A stretch of 64,000 bases of DNA, taken from positions 1 to 64,000 of the forward strand of contig NZ_LBMG01000015.1 of the NCBI RefSeq assembly GCF_001005315.1. Reading direction: 5' to 3'. This DNA comes from Kordia jejudonensis (GTDB taxonomy: Bacteria > Bacteroidota > Bacteroidia > Flavobacteriales > Flavobacteriaceae). Made by a program: the position numbers and the translations under genes. The notes below the pieces were generated by a model, which did no database searches, was not told the origin of the DNA, and was given only the letters and a program-made list of their open reading frames with translations. Shown here in pieces: positions 6,687-24,810 of the stretch (the stretch's first letter is position 1; every line of letters begins with the position of its first letter).

Positions 6687-7487
6687 ATGAAGCGCTTAAA
6701 GACAATAGGTATTGTTATCATTGCATTCTATATAGTAATTTCACTTATGTTACTTAATTTTCAAGAACAACTTATATTTCGAAGCCAAACGTTGCCACAA
6801 AACCATGTGTTTACGTCAGATGTTCCGTTTGAACAATTATTCTTGAAAGCTTCGGATGGCGCTATTTTAAACGGATTACACTACAAACAAGAACATCCAA
6901 AAGGTGTTTTGTTATATTTTCATGGAAATGCACAAACCTTAGAATATTGGGGCAAATGGGCAGAAAAATTATCACAAGATTATCAGTACGATGTGGTCAT
7001 TATGGATTATCGCGGTTATGGAAAAAGTACAGGAAAACGCAGTTATGACAGTATGTTAGCCGATGGAATGCTATTTTATAAATATTGCAAAACTAAATTT
7101 TCAGAAGACAGCATTACCATATTTGGGCGTTCGCTTGGTGGCGCGTTTGCGACACATGTGGCAACCAAAACCAACGCAAAACAGTTATTATTAGAATCTA
7201 CATTTACAAGTGTGTATGATATCGGAAGCAAACGATTCTGGTTTTTACCGCTGAAATGGTTGTTAAAATATCCTTTTCAAAACGATCAAAATATTCAACA
7301 AATTACGATGCCAACATTTATCATTCATGGAACGGAAGATGCCATCGTTCCTTATGAACACGGGCAAAAACTATATAAAAAGTCGGGTAGTGGCAACAAA
7401 AAAATCTATACCATTCAAAATGGACTGCACAATGATTTGATTAGTTATCCTGAATATTTTGAAGCATTGAACGAAATTTTGAAATAG
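6687..7487 (+). CDS. Alpha/beta hydrolase (second of a tandem pair)
   Basis: This 266-residue protein is a paralogue of the preceding gene, sharing the N-terminal anchor (about 5-24), YFHGNAQT, MDYRGYGKSTGKRS and the nucleophile elbow GRSLGGAF (Ser149). The acid is in HGTEDAIVP and the histidine in NGLHNDL. It retains a canonical HGN oxyanion-type motif where the first copy has the less usual LKGNS, so the two copies may differ in activity. Translation starts immediately after the upstream stop codon (TAA-ATG), suggesting translational coupling. Substrate unknown. Confidence 0.87.
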   Translation: MKRLKTIGIVIIAFYIVISLMLLNFQEQLIFRSQTLPQNHVFTSDVPFEQLFLKASDGAILNGLHYKQEHPKGVLLYFHGNAQTLEYWGKWAEKLSQDYQYDVVIMDYRGYGKSTGKRSYDSMLADGMLFYKYCKTKFSEDSITIFGRSLGGAFATHVATKTNAKQLLLESTFTSVYDIGSKRFWFLPLKWLLKYPFQNDQNIQQITMPTFIIHGTEDAIVPYEHGQKLYKKSGSGNKKIYTIQNGLHNDLISYPEYFEALNEILK

Positions 7488-8810: not shown

Positions 8811-9230
8811 CTATTTTTGATACGCTTCAAAAGTTCCGTCGGTATAAAAAATTACAATCTTATCAATTTTTTTTCCTTGAGCTGTACTTTTAGAAATGAT
8901 ACTTTCTTCCAAAGGAAATGACTTTGAAGTTTCTTCATGCACAATTTTTGGTGTCGTTATCGGAGTAGAAGTGGCAACATTTTCTGTAACAACTTTTTTA
9001 GGAAAACTTCCTTTTCCGTTCAACAACCAATACAATTCTACCTCTGGAAAAGCGTTCAAAATTTTCATGACAAACTCCAAACTTGGCTTATTTCTACCTG
9101 ATAAAATATGTGAAATACTAGAACGTTGCACGCTCAATTTATCCGCAAAAGCAGAAGCGGAAAGTCCGTAATACTCAAGTATTTTTCGTAGTCTTTTTGT
9201 AAAATCAGAAGTGTTTATCATTGTAAACAA
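8811..9230 (-). CDS. XRE-family helix-turn-helix regulator
   Basis: This is a 139-residue protein. Residues 7-62 form a lambda-repressor-type HTH (LRKILEYYGLSASAFADKL, then SSISHILSGRNKPSLEFV). Residues 85-139 are a linker and a short C-terminal segment ending IVIFYTDGTFEAYQK. It is divergent from the M14-family peptidase gene at 9529. The 298-base space between them holds several TTTAC...GTAAA palindromes, some overlapping the -7 elements of both promoters, which suggests autoregulation and control of the peptidase gene. That link is inference from site placement. Confidence 0.85.
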   Translation of the reverse strand: MFTMINTSDFTKRLRKILEYYGLSASAFADKLSVQRSSISHILSGRNKPSLEFVMKILNAFPEVELYWLLNGKGSFPKKVVTENVATSTPITTPKIVHEETSKSFPLEESIISKSTAQGKKIDKIVIFYTDGTFEAYQK

Positions 9231-19040: not shown

Positions 19041-20240
19041 CTAAAAAATTAGAAAATTAATATCTGTATGTGGAAGATTGAACCAATCTGCTACAGATTT
19101 ATTTGTTAAAACTCCGTGGTAAAAGTACAAACCATTTTTCAATCCTTTATCAAAACGTAGTGAATTTTCTAAACCACCTTCTTCGGCAATTTTTAATAGA
19201 TAAGGAGTAAAAATATTACTGATTGATACTGAAGCAGTTCTGGAATATCTAGCTGGAATATTTGGTACACAATAATGGATTACGCCAAATTTTTCAAACG
19301 TTGGGTGATCGTGCGTAGTAATTTCGCTAGTTTCTATGCAACCGCCCATATCAATGCTGACATCAATAATTACGGCACCTTTTTTCATATGTTCCACCAT
19401 TGCTTCTGTAACCAAAATAGGCGATCTGTTTTTTCCACGAACGGCGCCAATTAAAACATCGCAACGTTTCAAAGCTTTCATTAAATTTTTTGGCTGAATG
19501 GTAGATGTGTAAATAGGTCTGCCTAAATTGGTTTGAATGCAACGCAATTTCGTTATCGAATTGTCAAAAACTTTTACATTTGCACCTAAACCTAAAGCTG
19601 AACGAGCAGCAAATTCTCCAACAGTTCCAGCGCCAACAATGACAACTTCTGCTGGTGGAACGCCGCTGATATTTCCTAGCATCAATCCGTTACCATTATT
19701 GACATTTGCCATCAATTCGGAAGCGATTAACACTGAAGCAGTTCCAGCAATTTCACTCAATGAACGCACTGCTGGATACGTTCCGTCTTCATCACGAATA
19801 TATTCAAAAGCAAGTGCGGTAACTCGCTTGTTGGCTAACATTTCAAAATACTTTTTTGATCGAATTTTGATTTGTAAAGCGGAAATTAATATTGCTTGTG
19901 GATTTAGTAATTCCAGTTCTTTAATCGTTGGCGGTTCAACTTTTAAAACAATAGGGCAGGAGAATACTTTTTGTGTATCATTTGTGATTTCACCACCAGC
20001 TTCGGTATAATCTTTATCGGAAAAATTAGCTTCTTTCCCGGCACAACTTTCAATTAATACACGATGTCCGTGAGCAACAAGCGCGGCAACCGCATCAGGT
20101 GTAAGACATACTCGTTTTTCTTGATACGAAGTTTCTTTTGGAATTCCGATAAACAATTCTTGTTTATGTTTCAGAATTTCAAGCGTTTCCTCTTGTGGAA
20201 GTAATTGTTGTTTGGTAAATGGTGATAAAGATTCCGCCAT
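19041..20240 (-). CDS. ald: Alanine dehydrogenase
   Basis: This enzyme catalyses reversible NAD-dependent oxidative deamination of L-alanine to pyruvate and ammonia. The 399-residue protein has the AlaDh/PNT N-terminal domain beginning GIPKETSYQEKRVCLTPDAV (residues 33-52), and a Rossmann NAD-binding motif VVIVGAGTVGEFAARSALGLG near residues 175-195. GAVIIDVSIDMGGCIETSE, conserved in the family, lies near 290. It is slightly longer than Bacillus Ald (378) because of an N-terminal extension typical of Bacteroidota members. The start at 20240 is followed closely by the DUF4258-like gene. Confidence 0.92.
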   Translation of the reverse strand: MAESLSPFTKQQLLPQEETLEILKHKQELFIGIPKETSYQEKRVCLTPDAVAALVAHGHRVLIESCAGKEANFSDKDYTEAGGEITNDTQKVFSCPIVLKVEPPTIKELELLNPQAILISALQIKIRSKKYFEMLANKRVTALAFEYIRDEDGTYPAVRSLSEIAGTASVLIASELMANVNNGNGLMLGNISGVPPAEVVIVGAGTVGEFAARSALGLGANVKVFDNSITKLRCIQTNLGRPIYTSTIQPKNLMKALKRCDVLIGAVRGKNRSPILVTEAMVEHMKKGAVIIDVSIDMGGCIETSEITTHDHPTFEKFGVIHYCVPNIPARYSRTASVSISNIFTPYLLKIAEEGGLENSLRFDKGLKNGLYFYHGVLTNKSVADWFNLPHTDINFLIF

Positions 20241-20297: not shown

Positions 20298-20849
20298 CTA
20301 TTTATTTTCTTCAAGCATTTCTTGTTCTTTTCGTTCGTATTCGGCGAGTTCTGCATCAATTTTTTCTAAATCGATATTGTAAACATATTTATCAAAAAGT
20401 TTGATTCTTATGAAATATACAATTGGTACTATTATCATCATGATCGGAATTACCCAATAGATTTCTAATTCATCAAAATTTTCTGATTCATCATTAATTG
20501 CTTGTATCAACTGAAATGCAAACATGGCTATTGGTATTAAAAGCACATGATACCACCAATCTCGACAAGTAAAAAACCATAATATAAGTAAAAATAAGGG
20601 TATAATTTTATTCATACAAACCCAACCAACCATTCTTACATTTTCATAATAGTTACTTTCAAAAGTAAAAAAGAAAGTTTCCCAAGTTCTATTTTTAGGG
20701 AAACTTTCGTATAAATAAAATATATATGGTGTTATCGCAATTAAAAAAGCGACTATAGTAGATTTTATTAATTTATTTTTAGTTGTTCCTCGGAAGCTTA
20801 ATTTTGTCTTTTCTGACTCCTTCTTCGGTTTGGTATGGATTGTCTTCAT
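20298..20849 (-). CDS. Four-helix membrane protein, module copy 1
   Basis: This 183-residue protein of unknown function starts at ATG 20849, the only in-frame ATG near the N-terminus (an upstream TTG at 20879 would add ten residues). A lysine-rich head (MKTIHTKPKKESEKT) is followed by four predicted membrane helices (about 30-48, 85-100, 105-125, 140-162) with the conserved WWYH motif before helix three. A charged helix DLEKIDAELAEYERKEQEM ends the protein. Its first 71 bases overlap, in the +1 frame, the end of a small lipoprotein gene (20779-20931). Two paralogues with the same overlap follow upstream. The inner-membrane location is inferred; no enzyme motif is visible. Confidence 0.75.
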   Translation of the reverse strand: MKTIHTKPKKESEKTKLSFRGTTKNKLIKSTIVAFLIAITPYIFYLYESFPKNRTWETFFFTFESNYYENVRMVGWVCMNKIIPLFLLILWFFTCRDWWYHVLLIPIAMFAFQLIQAINDESENFDELEIYWVIPIMMIIVPIVYFIRIKLFDKYVYNIDLEKIDAELAEYERKEQEMLEENK

Positions 20850-20931
20850 CAGCAATACTGTCTGGGTTACAAGATACAAATAATATTGTTGATACGGCTG
20901 CTAAAATGTAAAGGTAGAATTTAGTTTTCAT
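20779..20931 (-). CDS. Small lipoprotein, module copy 1
   Basis: This 50-residue reading frame is too short for usual cut-offs. MKTKFYLYILAAVSTILFVS is a signal sequence ending at Cys21, a lipobox. The mature peptide CNPDSIADEDNPYQTEEG is acidic. Eighteen of the first nineteen mature residues are shared with copy 2, and copy 3 has the same CNPDSIADEDNPY start. The gene begins 34 bases after a TAAGTTTG promoter box and overlaps the downstream membrane-protein frame. The overlapped DNA encodes acidic residues in this frame and basic residues in the other. Probably exported and lipidated; function unknown. Confidence 0.72.
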   Translation of the reverse strand: MKTKFYLYILAAVSTILFVSCNPDSIADEDNPYQTEEGVRKDKIKLPRNN

Positions 20932-20964
20932 TTGATATTAGGTTTATTTAGTTTAACGATGGGT

Positions 20965-20972
20965 CAAACTTA
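20965..20972 (-). promoter_or_regulatory. -7 promoter element of module copy 1
   Basis: TAAGTTTG on the minus strand matches TAnnTTTG. The same box, followed by the shared leader GACCCATCGTTAAACTAAAT, precedes copy 2. Copy 3 has the same box with a diverged leader. Confidence 0.6.
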
Positions 20973-21014
20973 TATAATAAACAACTAATTATCAGAAAAT
21001 TATGTATATAAATT

Positions 21015-21063
21015 TTCTACGTACTTTTGTTGAATTTGGGTTAATCCAACAAAAGTCGTAGAA
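21015..21063. repeat. Long inverted repeat between module copies 1 and 2
   Basis: TTCTACGTACTTTTGTTG (21015-21032) pairs with CAACAAAAGTCGTAGAA (21047-21063) with a one-base bulge, around a 14-base loop. It lies downstream of copy 2 and upstream of the copy 1 promoter. It has no T-run, so it could be a transcript 3' end stabiliser or a weak terminator. Confidence 0.7.
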
Positions 21064-21112
21064 TTTTAGTTTTCTTGTATTTTAGCGTAAGTATTTTCGC
21101 GAATATACAGAT

Positions 21113-21673
21113 TTATTTTAGTTCATTTATGTTTTGAGCTTCTTTTTCTTTACGATCATACTCATCTAGTTCTGCTTCAATTTTCTTTAAATCGATTCCT
21201 AGGACCAGTTTGTCAAATAATTTTATTCTTATGAGGTACACTATCGGCACTACAACCATCATGATTGGTATCATCCAATAAATTTCAACTTCATCTATGT
21301 ATTGCTTGTCATCATTTATTACTGTAAATAATTGAAATGAGTACATAGCAATTGGGATTAAAATAACATGATACCACCAATGCTTACAGGTAATAAACCA
21401 TACAATTAGTAATAATATTGGCACAAGCTTACTTGTAAATAACCAAGCAAAATCATTTAAATTTTTATATCCATAACTTTTAAAAGTAAAAAACCAAGTC
21501 TCCATTGTTTCAGTTTCTGGAAAACTAGTATATAAATAAAATATATACGGAGATATAGCAATTAAAACTGCAGCTATGGATCCATAAAGTAAAGAAGTCT
21601 TTTTATCCGTTTGACGTTCTTGGTAATTTGTCTTTTCTGATTCCTTCTTCTGTTTCGTATGGGTTGTCTTCAT
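21113..21673 (-). CDS. Four-helix membrane protein, module copy 2
   Basis: This 186-residue protein starts at ATG 21673 inside the lipoprotein gene of the same module. It has the same head (MKTTHTKQKKESEKT), four helices, WWYHVILIPIAM and tail DLKKIEAELDEYDRKEKEA as copies 1 and 3. By eye more than half of the residues match copy 1, with the helices and tail most alike. The overlap with the lipoprotein frame (21603-21755) is 71 bases, the same as in copy 1. No known family was recognised. Each copy has its own promoter, so the copies are probably expressed as separate units rather than one long operon. Confidence 0.75.
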   Translation of the reverse strand: MKTTHTKQKKESEKTNYQERQTDKKTSLLYGSIAAVLIAISPYIFYLYTSFPETETMETWFFTFKSYGYKNLNDFAWLFTSKLVPILLLIVWFITCKHWWYHVILIPIAMYSFQLFTVINDDKQYIDEVEIYWMIPIMMVVVPIVYLIRIKLFDKLVLGIDLKKIEAELDEYDRKEKEAQNINELK

Positions 21674-21755
21674 CAGCAATGCTATCTGGATTACAAGATA
21701 CAAATAAAATTGTTGATACAGCAGCTAATAGGTAAAGGTAGAATTTAGTTTTCAT
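21603..21755 (-). CDS. Small lipoprotein, module copy 2
   Basis: This is a 50-residue peptide: signal MKTKFYLYLLAAVSTILFVS, lipidated Cys21, then CNPDSIADEDNPYETEEG and a short basic tail ending LPRTSNG. The signal differs from copy 1 at one residue only. It overlaps the membrane-protein frame by 71 bases. The level of matching across copies in both frames suggests both products are made, but a recent duplication would give the same picture. Confidence 0.72.
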   Translation of the reverse strand: MKTKFYLYLLAAVSTILFVSCNPDSIADEDNPYETEEGIRKDKLPRTSNG

Positions 21756-21790
21756 CTTATTAATTTAGATTATTTAGTTTAACGATGGGT

Positions 21791-21798
21791 CAAACTTA
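21791..21798 (-). promoter_or_regulatory. -7 promoter element of module copy 2
   Basis: TAAGTTTG on the minus strand, 35 bases before the lipoprotein ATG, in the same leader context as copy 1. Confidence 0.6.
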
Positions 21799-21836
21799 TT
21801 GAATAACCAACAGTTACCTTTAAAAATAGCATAATA

Positions 21837-21893
21837 TATTTTCTATGTACTTTTGTTAGTTTTATCTAAACTTAACGCAATACATAGAAAATA
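21837..21893. repeat. Inverted repeat between module copies 2 and 3
   Basis: Perfect 13-bp arms TATTTTCTATGTA (21837-21849) and TACATAGAAAATA (21881-21893) flank 31 bases. The left arm and the ACTTTTGTT that follows resemble the element between copies 1 and 2, so the palindrome was copied with the module but has diverged with its pairing kept. Confidence 0.75.
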
Positions 21894-21922
21894 GTATATC
21901 TTATTTATTTCAATGAACTTAT

Positions 21923-22474
21923 CTATTCCTGTTTGTTAATTAATAGACTTTGTTGTTCTTTTTCTTTTCGCTCATATTCTTCTAATTCTGCCTCTATTTT
22001 TTTGAGATCAATTCCGTGTATAAGTTTATCGAATAATTTTATTCTTATTAAATATACAATAGGAGTTATGATCATCATTATGGGTATGATGTAATATATT
22101 TCAAAAGCATCAAAATATTCAGTATCATCATTTAATAGACTAAATAATTGAAATGAAAGTAGCGCAATAGGTATTAAAATTGCATGATACCACCAATTCC
22201 TACATGTTAAAAACCACAATATAAGTAAAAGTAGTGGTGCTAATTTATTTGTAATATGCCAAATTGCTAATTGAGCACTTTCAAAATAATTACTATTATA
22301 TGTGAAAAACGGAGTTTTCCATATTTTTTCATCAGGTACACCTTCATATAAATAGAATAAATATGGAGATATAACCAGAAGAAGAGCAATGATACTACCC
22401 GTTAGTAGGGATTTTGTTGCTTTTCTCTTTTTTAAGTCCTTCTTCTGTTTGGTATGGGTTGTCTTCGTCTGCAA
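21923..22474 (-). CDS. Four-helix membrane protein, module copy 3
   Basis: This is the third paralogue, with the same four helices, the WWYHAILIPIALLSFQLF segment and the tail DLKKIEAELEEYERKEKEQ. The ATG used by copies 1 and 2 is ACG here, so the start is uncertain. TTG at 22474 (conserved in all copies) or TTG at 22498 are the options, giving 183 or 191 residues. If neither is used, translation would need a +1 shift from the lipoprotein frame. The membrane part is intact, so this does not look like a dead gene. It overlaps the lipoprotein gene at 22395-22550. Confidence 0.7.
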   Translation of the reverse strand: MQTKTTHTKQKKDLKKRKATKSLLTGSIIALLLVISPYLFYLYEGVPDEKIWKTPFFTYNSNYFESAQLAIWHITNKLAPLLLLILWFLTCRNWWYHAILIPIALLSFQLFSLLNDDTEYFDAFEIYYIIPIMMIITPIVYLIRIKLFDKLIHGIDLKKIEAELEEYERKEKEQQSLLINKQE

Positions 22475-22550
22475 TGCTATCTGGGTTACAAGACACAAAT
22501 GTTACCGATGCTAATACTACTGCTGCGAATACATAATTTCTTAATTTCAT
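22395..22550 (-). CDS. Small lipoprotein, module copy 3
   Basis: This is a 51-residue peptide. MKLRNYVFAAVVLASVTFVS is a signal that has diverged strongly from the other copies, yet the mature start CNPDSIADEDNPYQTEEG is identical to copy 1. Strong conservation of the mature part over a diverged signal argues for selection on the lipoprotein itself. It ends with TAG inside the membrane-protein frame. Function unknown. Confidence 0.72.
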   Translation of the reverse strand: MKLRNYVFAAVVLASVTFVSCNPDSIADEDNPYQTEEGLKKEKSNKIPTNG

Positions 22551-22579
22551 TTTGTTTAGGTTTTAGTTTTACGATGATG

Positions 22580-22587
22580 CAAACTTA
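22580..22587 (-). promoter_or_regulatory. -7 promoter element of module copy 3
   Basis: TAAGTTTG on the minus strand, 29 bases before the lipoprotein ATG. The leader after it differs from copies 1 and 2. Confidence 0.55.
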
Positions 22588-22764: not shown

Positions 22765-23172
22765 TCAATTTTTTAGGTGAATTGTACGCAATTGCTCATT
22801 TATCTTCTTAATATGTATTTGGGTAATGTCATTTGGTAATAAATTTTCAATGCGTTCTGGCCATTCTATAAAACACCAAGCATCACTATATAAGTAATCC
22901 TCTATACCTATATCATAGGCTTCAACTTCGTCCTCTATCCGATAACAATCAAAATGGTAAATGATATCATTCTGCGTGCGATATTCGTTTACAATGGAAA
23001 ATGTTGGACTGTTAGTAAGTTCATTTACACCTAATTGCTTTGCCAATATTTTTATAAGTGTAGTTTTTCCAACACCCATTTCCCCATGAAAAGCAATTAT
23101 TTTATGTTCAGATTTCGCTAAAATAGCTTCAGCAATCTCTTCAATTTGCGAAAGCGTGTATTCTTTTTGCAC
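22765..23172 (-). CDS. tsaE: tRNA threonylcarbamoyladenosine biosynthesis ATPase TsaE
   Basis: This 135-residue cytoplasmic P-loop protein works with TsaB, TsaC/Sua5 and TsaD to make the t6A modification on ANN-decoding tRNAs. The Walker A motif GEMGVGKTTL lies at about 30-39, followed by the switch-like SPTFSIVNEY at about 55-64. CFIEWPERIENLLP near 105-118 is the family's conserved C-terminal motif. It lies downstream of porX on the same strand (90-base gap), an arrangement I recall from other Flavobacteriia. Confidence 0.93.
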   Translation of the reverse strand: MQKEYTLSQIEEIAEAILAKSEHKIIAFHGEMGVGKTTLIKILAKQLGVNELTNSPTFSIVNEYRTQNDIIYHFDCYRIEDEVEAYDIGIEDYLYSDAWCFIEWPERIENLLPNDITQIHIKKINEQLRTIHLKN

Positions 23173-23262: not shown

Positions 23263-24810
23263 TTATCTTGGCGATAAAACGGCAAAAGGAATAATCATTT
23301 CTTCCAAAGAAACACCACCATGTTGGTAGGTATTTCTGTAATAACTTACGTAATGATTGTAGTTATTTGGATATGCGAAGAACAAATCGGTCTTAGCAAA
23401 AATAAAGGAACTACTCATGTTTATAGTTGGCAAATGAATGGTTCTTGGATCTTTAGCAGCCAATACATCTTTTTTCTCATAGGTGAGACTTCTTCCTGTT
23501 TTGTAGCGAAGATTCAAACTTGTATTTTTGTCGCCAACTACTTTTGAAGGATGTTTTACGTTGATAGTTCCATGATCAGTTGTGATAATTAATTTGAAAC
23601 CCAAACGTTGCGATTGCTGAATGATATCTAATAAAGGAGAGTTTTTAAACCAACTTTGTGTCAGCGATCTGTACGCTTTGTCATTAGAAGCCAATTCTTT
23701 CACAACTTCCATTTCGGTTTTAGCATGTGAGAGCATGTCTACGAAGTTGTACACCACAACCGTTAAATCATTATCTTTTTGCGATTTAAAGTTGTCAGCA
23801 AGCTTTCGTCCACCTTTTAAGCTAGTAATCTTGTGATATTCATGTTTAATATTGAGTCCTAAACGCTTCAATTGAGCTTTTAAGAAATCATTTTCATGTA
23901 AATTTTTTCCACCTTCTTCCGTATCATTCTTCCAATATTCAGGATGTAGTTTTTCCATGTCAGAAGGCATTAATCCTGAAAAAATAGCATTTCTAGCATA
24001 TTGTGTTGCTGTCGGAAGTATGCTCACAAACGGAACTTCTTTCTCCTTTTTATAATGCGTATTTACAATAGGTTCAAAAGCTTTCCATTGATCGTAACGT
24101 AAATTATCAACGACAACCAATAAAGTAGGTTGCGCTTTGCTAATTTCAGGAACAACCAATTCTCTAAACAACGTGTGCGACATTATCGGCGCATCTTCAT
24201 TGCCAAACCAATCAGGATAATTTTTATCAATAAATTTTCCAAACTGAACATTGGCTTCGTTCTTTTGAGATTCTAGAATTTCAAACATGCCTGTATCTTC
24301 AATATCTTCGAGTTGTAGTTCCCAATAAATCAATTTCTGATACAACTCAATCCATTCTTCAATCGAATTGACCATAGACATTTCCATAGCAATCTTTCGA
24401 AACTCTTGCTGATAGTTTGAAGTCGTTTTTTCCGAAACCAATCGAGAATGATCTAAATTTTTCTTCAAACTCAATAATATCTGGTTCGGATTCACAGGTT
24501 TTATCAAATAATCTGCAATTTTAGAACCAATAGCTTCTTCCATAATATATTCTTCCTCGCTCTTCGTAATCATTACCACAGGAAGATTATTTTGCTTCTC
24601 TTTTAACTCTGCTAAGGTTTCAATTCCCGTCAAACCAGGCATATTTTCATCCAAAAACACAATATCATAACGATCTTCATCAATCATTTCAATCGCTTCT
24701 GTTCCGCTTGTACATGTGGTAACGTCGTAATTTTTTTTCTGTAAAAAGAGAATATGTGGTTTTAATAAATCAATTTCATCATCAACCCAAAGAATCTTGA
24801 ATGCACTCAT
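23263..24810 (-). CDS. porX: T9SS two-component regulator PorX (response regulator plus PglZ domain)
   Basis: This is a 515-residue protein. Residues 5-120 are a CheY-type receiver with phospho-acceptor Asp54 (IVFLDENMPG), acidic pocket Asp10-Asp11 and Lys in LIKPVNP. The rest is an alkaline-phosphatase-like PglZ domain, with TLLVVVDNLRYDQW near 230 and LIITTDHGTINVKHP near 410. In Porphyromonas and Flavobacterium, PorX with the kinase PorY controls expression and function of the type IX secretion system, and its PglZ domain is a metal-dependent phosphodiesterase. This fits the T9SS cargo protein at 2167. PorY is not in the window. Confidence 0.93.
   Translation of the reverse strand: MSAFKILWVDDEIDLLKPHILFLQKKNYDVTTCTSGTEAIEMIDEDRYDIVFLDENMPGLTGIETLAELKEKQNNLPVVMITKSEEEYIMEEAIGSKIADYLIKPVNPNQILLSLKKNLDHSRLVSEKTTSNYQQEFRKIAMEMSMVNSIEEWIELYQKLIYWELQLEDIEDTGMFEILESQKNEANVQFGKFIDKNYPDWFGNEDAPIMSHTLFRELVVPEISKAQPTLLVVVDNLRYDQWKAFEPIVNTHYKKEKEVPFVSILPTATQYARNAIFSGLMPSDMEKLHPEYWKNDTEEGGKNLHENDFLKAQLKRLGLNIKHEYHKITSLKGGRKLADNFKSQKDNDLTVVVYNFVDMLSHAKTEMEVVKELASNDKAYRSLTQSWFKNSPLLDIIQQSQRLGFKLIITTDHGTINVKHPSKVVGDKNTSLNLRYKTGRSLTYEKKDVLAAKDPRTIHLPTINMSSSFIFAKTDLFFAYPNNYNHYVSYYRNTYQHGGVSLEEMIIPFAVLSPR

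Follow-up and report, generated by a model that had tools for sequence, protein, structure and literature searches.

A small gene for a putative peptide precursor and its four-helix membrane partner, present in three tandem copies in Kordia jejudonensis, recur across the family and in phages

Why would a chromosome hold, three times in succession, a very small lipoprotein gene that runs into the gene for a membrane protein? The question is raised by a 64,000-nucleotide stretch of Kordia jejudonensis DNA (assembly GCF_001005315.1, contig NZ_LBMG01000015.1, positions 1 to 64,000; hereafter the window), in which three tandem two-gene units lie on the minus strand, bounded by tsaE and a gene that we take to be alanine dehydrogenase-like. 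Each unit comprises an open reading frame (ORF) for a lipoprotein of 50 to 51 amino acids (aa) and, in the +1 frame of that lipoprotein, an ORF for a four-helix membrane protein (4TM). The pair is not local: it is found family-wide, and phages carry it beside a repressor-like gene. We propose, at somewhat short of an even chance, that each pair makes a secreted or surface-anchored peptide that would be sensed by, or act with, the 4TM, and that phages carry the cassette near their lysogeny switch. The genes of the three units are as follows.

20779..20931, minus strand: copy 1 small lipoprotein, the putative peptide precursor, 50 aa (ORF; precursor profile with expectation value E = 4.4e-25, the profile including copy 1)
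20782-20817, minus strand: copy 1 C-terminal core, VRKDKIKLPRNN
20298..20849, minus strand: copy 1 4TM, 183 aa, ATG start, overlap of 71 nucleotides (nt), +1 frame (ORF, AlphaFold2 model)
21603..21755, minus strand: copy 2 small lipoprotein, the putative peptide precursor, 50 aa, C-terminus KDKLPRTSNG (ORF, profile)
21113..21673, minus strand: copy 2 4TM, 186 aa, ATG start, 71-nt overlap (ORF)
22395..22550, minus strand: copy 3 small lipoprotein, the putative peptide precursor, 51 aa, C-terminus KEKSNKIPTNG (ORF, profile)
21923..22474, minus strand: copy 3 4TM, 183 aa if the putative TTG start at 22474 is used (open frame without ATG)

An earlier, sequence-only reading of this DNA had described the three tandem copies, the +1-frame 4TM proteins of 183 to 186 aa, and the 71-base overlap in copies 1 and 2, where the 4TM begins inside the lipoprotein gene; the ORFs agree on each point, and the 4TM start in these two copies is an ATG. 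It had also suggested that a cognate lipoprotein and membrane protein pair was expanded by duplication, which is upheld here. A 4TM profile matched 213 of 299 sampled genomes of the family, representing 170 of 236 genera, and 18 of 296 genomes in an order-wide draw, 2 of them from other families. There was no match among the genomes listed for one heavily sampled genus (g147), which also contributed none of the 18 matches of the order-wide draw, and plasmid records contained no match for copy 1. Among 198 4TM genes (profile score of at least 140, double-domain genes excluded), 193 had a small signal-like ORF upstream, and the five without one were all secondary copies. The rule for such an ORF is permissive: 91 of 516 controls, open frames of no fewer than 200 codons with 4TM-like ones excluded, pass it too. 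An upstream small ORF ending in P-x-x-G, however, was found for 97 of the 193 pairs versus none of the 516 controls, and one overlapping in the +1 frame for 153 of the 193, where the overlap is with the 4TM open frame, versus 4 controls. The triplication is old, since all 10 other sampled genomes of the genus carry the three copies as a single array; judging from their sequences, the three pairs in the window are paralogues of long standing whose C-termini have diverged. Another contig of the same genome (G000:C4) holds a fourth pair, which is itself diverged.

Selection acts on the small gene, as the sequence-only reading had argued. Across 58 precursors of 47 residues, the ratio of nonsynonymous to synonymous polymorphism (pN/pS) was 0.28 in the part before the overlap. 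Within the overlap, it was 0.66 in the peptide frame and 0.91 in the 4TM frame, compared with 0.77 in a gene-free +1 control frame. In a synonymous null that fixed the 4TM protein and redrew its codons, the small frame reached the observed stop in 7% of draws and gained a P-x-x-G ending in 0.09%, versus 59.6% of the 141 overlapping pairs observed (84 of 140 without L200, for which the wrong ORF had been picked). The reverse null, with the precursor fixed, left the 4TM frame open in 35% of draws. In the shared DNA it is the peptide that is constrained, with selection evident in the lipoprotein frame and not in the 4TM frame. The idea that both frames of the overlap are constrained is not supported, and the contrast between acidic residues in one frame and lysine-rich residues in the other requires no second selected frame.

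The sequence-only reading had asked whether the overlap is conserved beyond this genome, and in part it is. It typically measures 59 nt in the overlapping group and is present in all 80 loci of the closest-relative set (the best 80 of 542), and it is absent from 40 of the 193 pairs. In other clades the precursor and 4TM genes are separated by a gap of approximately 70 to 400 nt, so the overlap is widespread yet not essential. The 4TM genes of these clades start cleanly, a pattern that had been named as a possible refutation. Because of these clean starts, dual coding cannot be what defines the system.

The precursor begins with a signal peptide, continues in a variable linker, and closes at the C-terminus with a core near [IV]-[DE]-[KR]-x-K-I-K-V-P-x-x-G. 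Its description as a lipoprotein holds in the window, where all three precursors have the lipobox cysteine of bacterial lipoproteins (FVSC), but not family-wide: a lipobox pattern match was found in 77 of 193 precursors, and the closest relatives have an AxA-type, non-lipoprotein signal peptide. Likewise, more is informative than the mature start, to which the sequence-only reading had pointed: the telling part is the C-terminal core. In several lineages this core is repeated in tandem, with 2 to 6 copies. There are six copies in L190; four in L202, L203, and L184; three in L173, L169, L200, L201, and L181; and two in L158, L163, and L177. Three copies also occur in L103, within the overlapping clade. 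By a single rule, internal repeats were detected in 14 of 56 precursors of a diverse set, compared with about 0.2 of 56 after shuffling; four of these loci had been fetched because repeats were already seen, and without them the count is 10 of 52. Repeats were found in 1 of 80 precursors of the closest-relative set, 1 of 24 in a further set (L031, from the same genome as L203), 0 of 30 in the genus, 0 of 3 in the window, and 2 of 5 viral precursors. One genome (G031) has six tandem precursor genes with no 4TM gene between them, followed by a single 4TM gene. On this sequence evidence, the repeated cores argue for a peptide precursor and against a structural lipoprotein.

The same cassette is found in phages. 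Copy 1 matched nine records of Cellulophaga phage Ingeline (E = 6e-7), which were the only matches among phage records; the chromosomal locus L038 had none. A 4TM profile built before the phage was fetched matched the Ingeline locus with E = 5e-43, and a profile of helix-turn-helix (HTH) proteins matched it with E = 6e-25. The Ingeline genes run in the order integrase, small HTH-like gene, precursor, 4TM, small ORF, and convergent HTH gene, and divergent from the latter lie genes that include a LuxR-type gene and a primase; in locus L261, the divergent region is at about 7103-7220. The Ingeline precursor has 49 aa and ends in ...PPIDKGVPPPTNG, with PIDKGVPPPTNG as its core peptide. Because the precursor profile scores only E = 0.12 at this locus, the homology of the precursor rests on its position, signal peptide, core, and overlap.

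A scan of IMG/VR brought the number of viral contigs to five, one of which is Ingeline, and further scans added no others. In all five, a precursor is followed by an overlapping 4TM, a third ORF of small size, and an HTH gene in convergent orientation; measured to the first ATG in the 4TM frame, the overlap is 41 to 134 nt. The HTH profile, made from chromosomal loci, matches all of them. The viral HTH proteins (130 to 171 aa) match PHROGs transcription regulator or repressor families, with best E values between 2.8e-8 and 3.8e-4, and none of the five has a Pfam TPR match at E = 0.01. The third ORF of Ingeline has no Pfam match. An integrase lies near the precursor in two of the five contigs, L262 and L266; none was seen in the approximately 2.2 kb upstream in L264 and L265, and the L263 contig starts at the precursor. 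The precursors of L264 and L265 have two cores each. In a tree of 4TM proteins, L262 to L264 group nearest to the chromosomal locus L250, L265 has L250 and secondary chromosomal loci as its closest neighbours, and L266 stands apart, the tips nearest to it being main-locus sequences; support is weak (0.54) for the smallest clade that includes all five viral sequences. Viral contig L265 and chromosomal locus L251 share one and the same 12-residue core, IDKDKYEIPPNG, an identity that would allow cross-talk between phage and host.

The link to an HTH gene extends to chromosomes. Of 137 loci, each at least 6 kb long, 22 contained both a secondary 4TM gene (single or double) and an HTH gene, 8 only the former, 4 only the latter, and 103 neither (Fisher's exact test, P = 4e-15, although related genomes are not independent). 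In 20 of the 22 loci with both, the HTH gene lay tail to tail with a 4TM gene, the two ends being no more than 120 nt apart. For three exceptions, L156, L159, and L192, longer stretches (L257, L255, and L258) brought the absent partner into view, and the HTH-only locus L118 has an unlinked gene of generic type. Full modules of precursor, 4TM, small third ORF, and convergent HTH gene are present in chromosomal loci L250, L044 (from the same genome as the window), and L038. The HTH profile matches L250 and not L044 or L038, whose HTH genes were named by eye, with weak PHROGs support for L044.

Several other arrangements were seen around such modules. L255, L257, and L258 hold arrays of several secondary 4TM genes that end at a convergent HTH gene, with four double-domain genes in L255. 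The full module of L250 (G129:C8:179500-184600) adjoins a bacteriocin-like peptide with what we take to be a double-glycine (GG) leader; the resemblance by eye of L250 ORFs to early genes of Ingeline suggests that this locus is perhaps a prophage remnant. In the window's own genome, L245 (C150:58600-63800) contains a small lipoprotein, an unrelated-looking membrane protein of 276 aa, a 63-aa ORF, and a convergent HTH gene, and it adjoins two small peptides whose leaders are presumably also double-glycine-like. L246 and L249 are similar to L245 without the HTH gene. The window itself has an HTH/XRE gene at 8811-9230 that matches the module HTH profile (E = 2e-18) and is similar to the gene of L118; it is the only HTH-profile match in the window, with no 4TM or precursor match beside it.

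One fusion hints at what the 4TM may do. In one genome of the same genus (L039:1973-3079), a 4TM domain is fused to the Pfam domains His_kinase and HATPase; this 4TM matches copy 1 with E = 3.1e-7 and a 4TM profile built without L039 with E = 7.2e-22. As the sequence-only reading had indicated, the window precursors and the three 4TM proteins have no Pfam or NCBIfam match above the cut-off, and we read their sub-threshold matches as generic signal-peptide or helix matches. PHROGs yielded nothing for the 4TM and precursor of copy 1. Of the 8 proteins compared with PADLOC models, four of which came from the window, 7 had no match and one paralogue, L037, had a marginal one (E = 0.0087). The precursor and the 4TM thus match no known family, and the matches of the HTH proteins are limited to broad regulator families of PHROGs. 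The colony-spreading lipoprotein Csl of Flavobacterium johnsoniae was also considered, and no link was found to the protein as portrayed in the pertinent passages of PMC7807042.

An AlphaFold2 model of the copy 1 4TM, built from 93 sequences (mean pLDDT, the per-residue confidence, 81.5; pTM, the predicted template modeling score, 0.64), has helices at residues 11-49, 71-94, 100-118, 129-155, and 161-182. It shows four long helices, the first two of which are joined through a short pair of strands, and a helix at the C-terminus. Foldseek against the PDB gave a best E of 3.4, and searching PDB sequences with a profile brought no match (best E = 0.17). In a second fold comparison, Z was at most 7.7, for a three-helix subunit of complex I (root mean square deviation of 5.7 over 89 residues); for helical bundles, the tool treats values in this range as uninformative.

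The pair usually occupies one chromosomal site, in the order response regulator/PglZ gene, tsaE, pair, and dehydrogenase-like gene, which recurs in several genera. The remaining features of the window at this site are the following.

20947..20972, minus strand: copy 1 promoter-like TAAGTTTG at 20965-20972 and conserved 5' element ATCGTTAAACTAAA at 20947-20960
21773..21798, minus strand: copy 2 promoter-like box at 21791-21798 and 5' element at 21773-21786
22562..22587, minus strand: copy 3 promoter-like box at 22580-22587 and 5' element ATCGTAAAACTAAA at 22562-22575
22765..23172, minus strand: flanking tsaE, outside the system, marking the conserved chromosomal site (Pfam TsaE, E = 1.3e-38)
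23263..24810, minus strand: flanking response regulator and PglZ protein, presumably PorX-like, outside the system (Pfam Response_reg and PglZ)
19041..20240, minus strand: flanking gene downstream, outside the system, presumably alanine dehydrogenase-like (same neighbour in several relatives)

A promoter box ahead of each copy had been noticed before. It is present in all three and, as TAAGTTTG, in 32 of 33 genus copies, the remaining copy having TATGTTTG. The 5' element ATCGT[TA]AAACTAAA occurs in 33 of 33 genus copies and also precedes the precursor of phage Ingeline; CNPDSIADEDNPY occurs in 32 of the 33. A different conserved leader, near ATTAATTAATTAAATCCCTT, lies ahead of the precursor gene in the inspected loci of the L046-L125 set. 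Copy 3 differs at its 4TM start: in 11 of 11 genus genomes, ACG stands as the homologous codon in place of the ATG, and no ATG precedes the first helix in any of them, versus an ATG in 22 of 22 copies 1 and 2. Two Bizionia assemblies (L058 and L059) likewise have ACG at this site. Our best guess for the start of copy 3 is the TTG at 22474, which would give 183 aa and an 80-nt overlap, and the lack of an ATG may point to coupled translation.

How might these parts work together? We suggest that the small gene would encode a Sec-exported precursor, lipid-anchored in the window, that presents or releases a C-terminal core of about 12 residues. The downstream gene would supply an inner-membrane four-helix protein that recognizes this peptide, most simply as a sensor. 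In phage and mobile versions, the signal would pass via the small third protein to the convergently encoded repressor-like HTH protein at a presumed lysogeny-control site, and the cassette could inform the phage of other copies of itself or of host density. Secretion, processing, binding, signalling, and the role in lysogeny are all steps that we infer. Among the possible roles of the 4TM, we rank that of a sensor first, on the strength of its fusion to a kinase, its linkage to HTH genes, and its place at a phage repressor-like gene. The broader claim, that this is a Bacteroidota peptide communication system unrelated to RRNPPA or Agr, in which a four-helix receptor senses a secreted repeat-core peptide and which temperate phages carry to set their lysogeny repressor, with a core that they can share with chromosomes, is more doubtful, and we offer it as a possibility that we would not bet on.

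A number of observations weigh against a sensed peptide. The main chromosomal site, including that of the window, lacks a linked output gene in most loci (the 103 of 137 with neither partner). Most precursors have a single core, some cores are degenerate (L026, L027, and L029), and neither a processing protease nor a cleavage site was identified. The fusion to a kinase stands alone, as 11 other kinases of the genus had no 4TM match; 10 of these were picked as matches to L039 that reach its membrane part or for their location in the window's genome, and the eleventh lies within the window at approximately 59.9 to 61.0 kb. The 4TM fold has no informative match, which leaves the receptor role without structural support. 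After correction for TsaE and the alanine dehydrogenase-like gene, core distance tracks 4TM distance (partial Mantel, partial r = 0.457, n = 18), but so does that of the signal peptide (partial r = 0.388, n = 18). The core is therefore not singled out, and we do not claim core-specific coevolution. Finally, tandem cores could alternatively give avidity on an anchored protein.

This last point leads to one of two serious rivals, in which the lipoprotein stays attached to the envelope and binds the 4TM as a subunit or modulator, with tandem cores raising avidity, a view that comes near to that of the sequence-only reading. The lipobox cysteine of the window copies, the stable gene order and pairing, and the fact that not just the core but the entire precursor with its signal peptide tracks the 4TM would all fit such a complex. 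It accounts poorly for the non-lipoprotein signal peptides of the closest-relative set and the lipobox pattern in only 77 of 193 precursors, for precursor genes that are amplified alone, and for phage versions placed at a repressor-like gene, and we think it unlikely. The other serious rival is an antimicrobial or exclusion cassette, in which the peptide would be toxin-like or an exclusion factor and the 4TM would confer immunity, in phages as superinfection exclusion. Location in the integrase and repressor region of phages would fit such a cassette; arrays of extra 4TM genes resemble orphan immunity genes, and the small peptides near L245 and L250 have what we take to be double-glycine-like leaders. 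Yet in much of the family there is mostly one pair at one fixed chromosomal site, PADLOC recognized none of the tested proteins apart from the one marginal case, and a 4TM-histidine kinase fusion fits sensing better, so that we consider this explanation improbable to a similar degree.

Two further explanations fare worse. The small ORF might regulate translation of the 4TM in cis, in the manner of secretion-monitoring arrest peptides, a reading that we favoured early. Its signal peptide, the conserved C-terminus at the stop codon, and the overlap with the next start would suit an arrest peptide, as would the coupled translation suggested by copy 3; we dropped it after finding tandem cores and stand-alone precursor genes (six copies), and together with non-overlapping loci with long gaps these make it very improbable. 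That only the 4TM matters and the small ORF is a by-product of its early start is scarcely credible, as no supporting point survived testing and both the low pN/pS outside the overlap and the synonymous null contradict it.

How does a peptide sensed by, or acting with, a 4TM compare with what is known? Gram-positive bacteria and the phages that infect them are well known to signal by peptides, and to our knowledge lysogeny cues are poorly known in Bacteroidota. Our searches of open-licence literature, which held no preprints, brought up no description of the precursor/4TM pair or of peptide signalling in Bacteroidota. If our proposal is true, a peptide signal would be present in most sampled genomes of a large family (213 of 299), and phages would have a second, unrelated communication system. 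The idea is directly testable: the complete cassette is present in an isolated phage with a cultured host (Ingeline, with Cellulophaga sp. HaHaR_3_176), and the cores are short enough to synthesize.

Among known systems, Agr (AgrD/AgrB/AgrC) has a short peptide gene that adjoins a multi-helix membrane protein. The same juxtaposition is found here, along with one 4TM-histidine kinase fusion; unlike in Agr, the 4TM proteins of the window have no Pfam or NCBIfam match above the cut-off, such as one to an AgrB-type membrane peptidase, the peptide has a Sec signal, and there is no kinase at the locus. The pheromone cAD1 derives from the signal peptide of a lipoprotein precursor. In the relevant section of PMC7074142, a lipoprotein gene is the source of this enterococcal signalling peptide, so both peptides would derive from lipoprotein genes, whereas the conserved core is here at the C-terminus. 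Rap-Phr systems of the RRNPPA type, in the pertinent parts of a 2024 study (PMC11343458), have an exported propeptide, occur also in phages, and have several pheromone copies, which are tandemly duplicated in phage Rap-Phr propeptides; all of this resembles the present cassette. We set the two apart by description, in that here there is no TPR receptor and the partner is an integral membrane protein, and we saw no sequence relation. There is also a likeness in layout to arbitrium (AimP-AimR-AimX) of Bacillus phages, in which, in the passages of PMC10075063 that bear on it, a phage-encoded gene for a small exported peptide also adjoins its regulator. There, AimR is a cytoplasmic RRNPP-type receptor, in contrast to a four-helix membrane protein and a separate short HTH protein with no Pfam TPR, in a Gram-negative phylum. 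Of the features that characterize RRNPPA and arbitrium systems, then, the cassette lacks a TPR receptor and has a small propeptide gene, Sec-exported as predicted from its sequence, that adjoins its partner. The likeness to arbitrium would extend to a site of lysis-lysogeny control, given the role in lysogeny that we propose. If its function is confirmed, the cassette would work like peptide quorum sensing or arbitrium while being, by the features tested, a member of neither.

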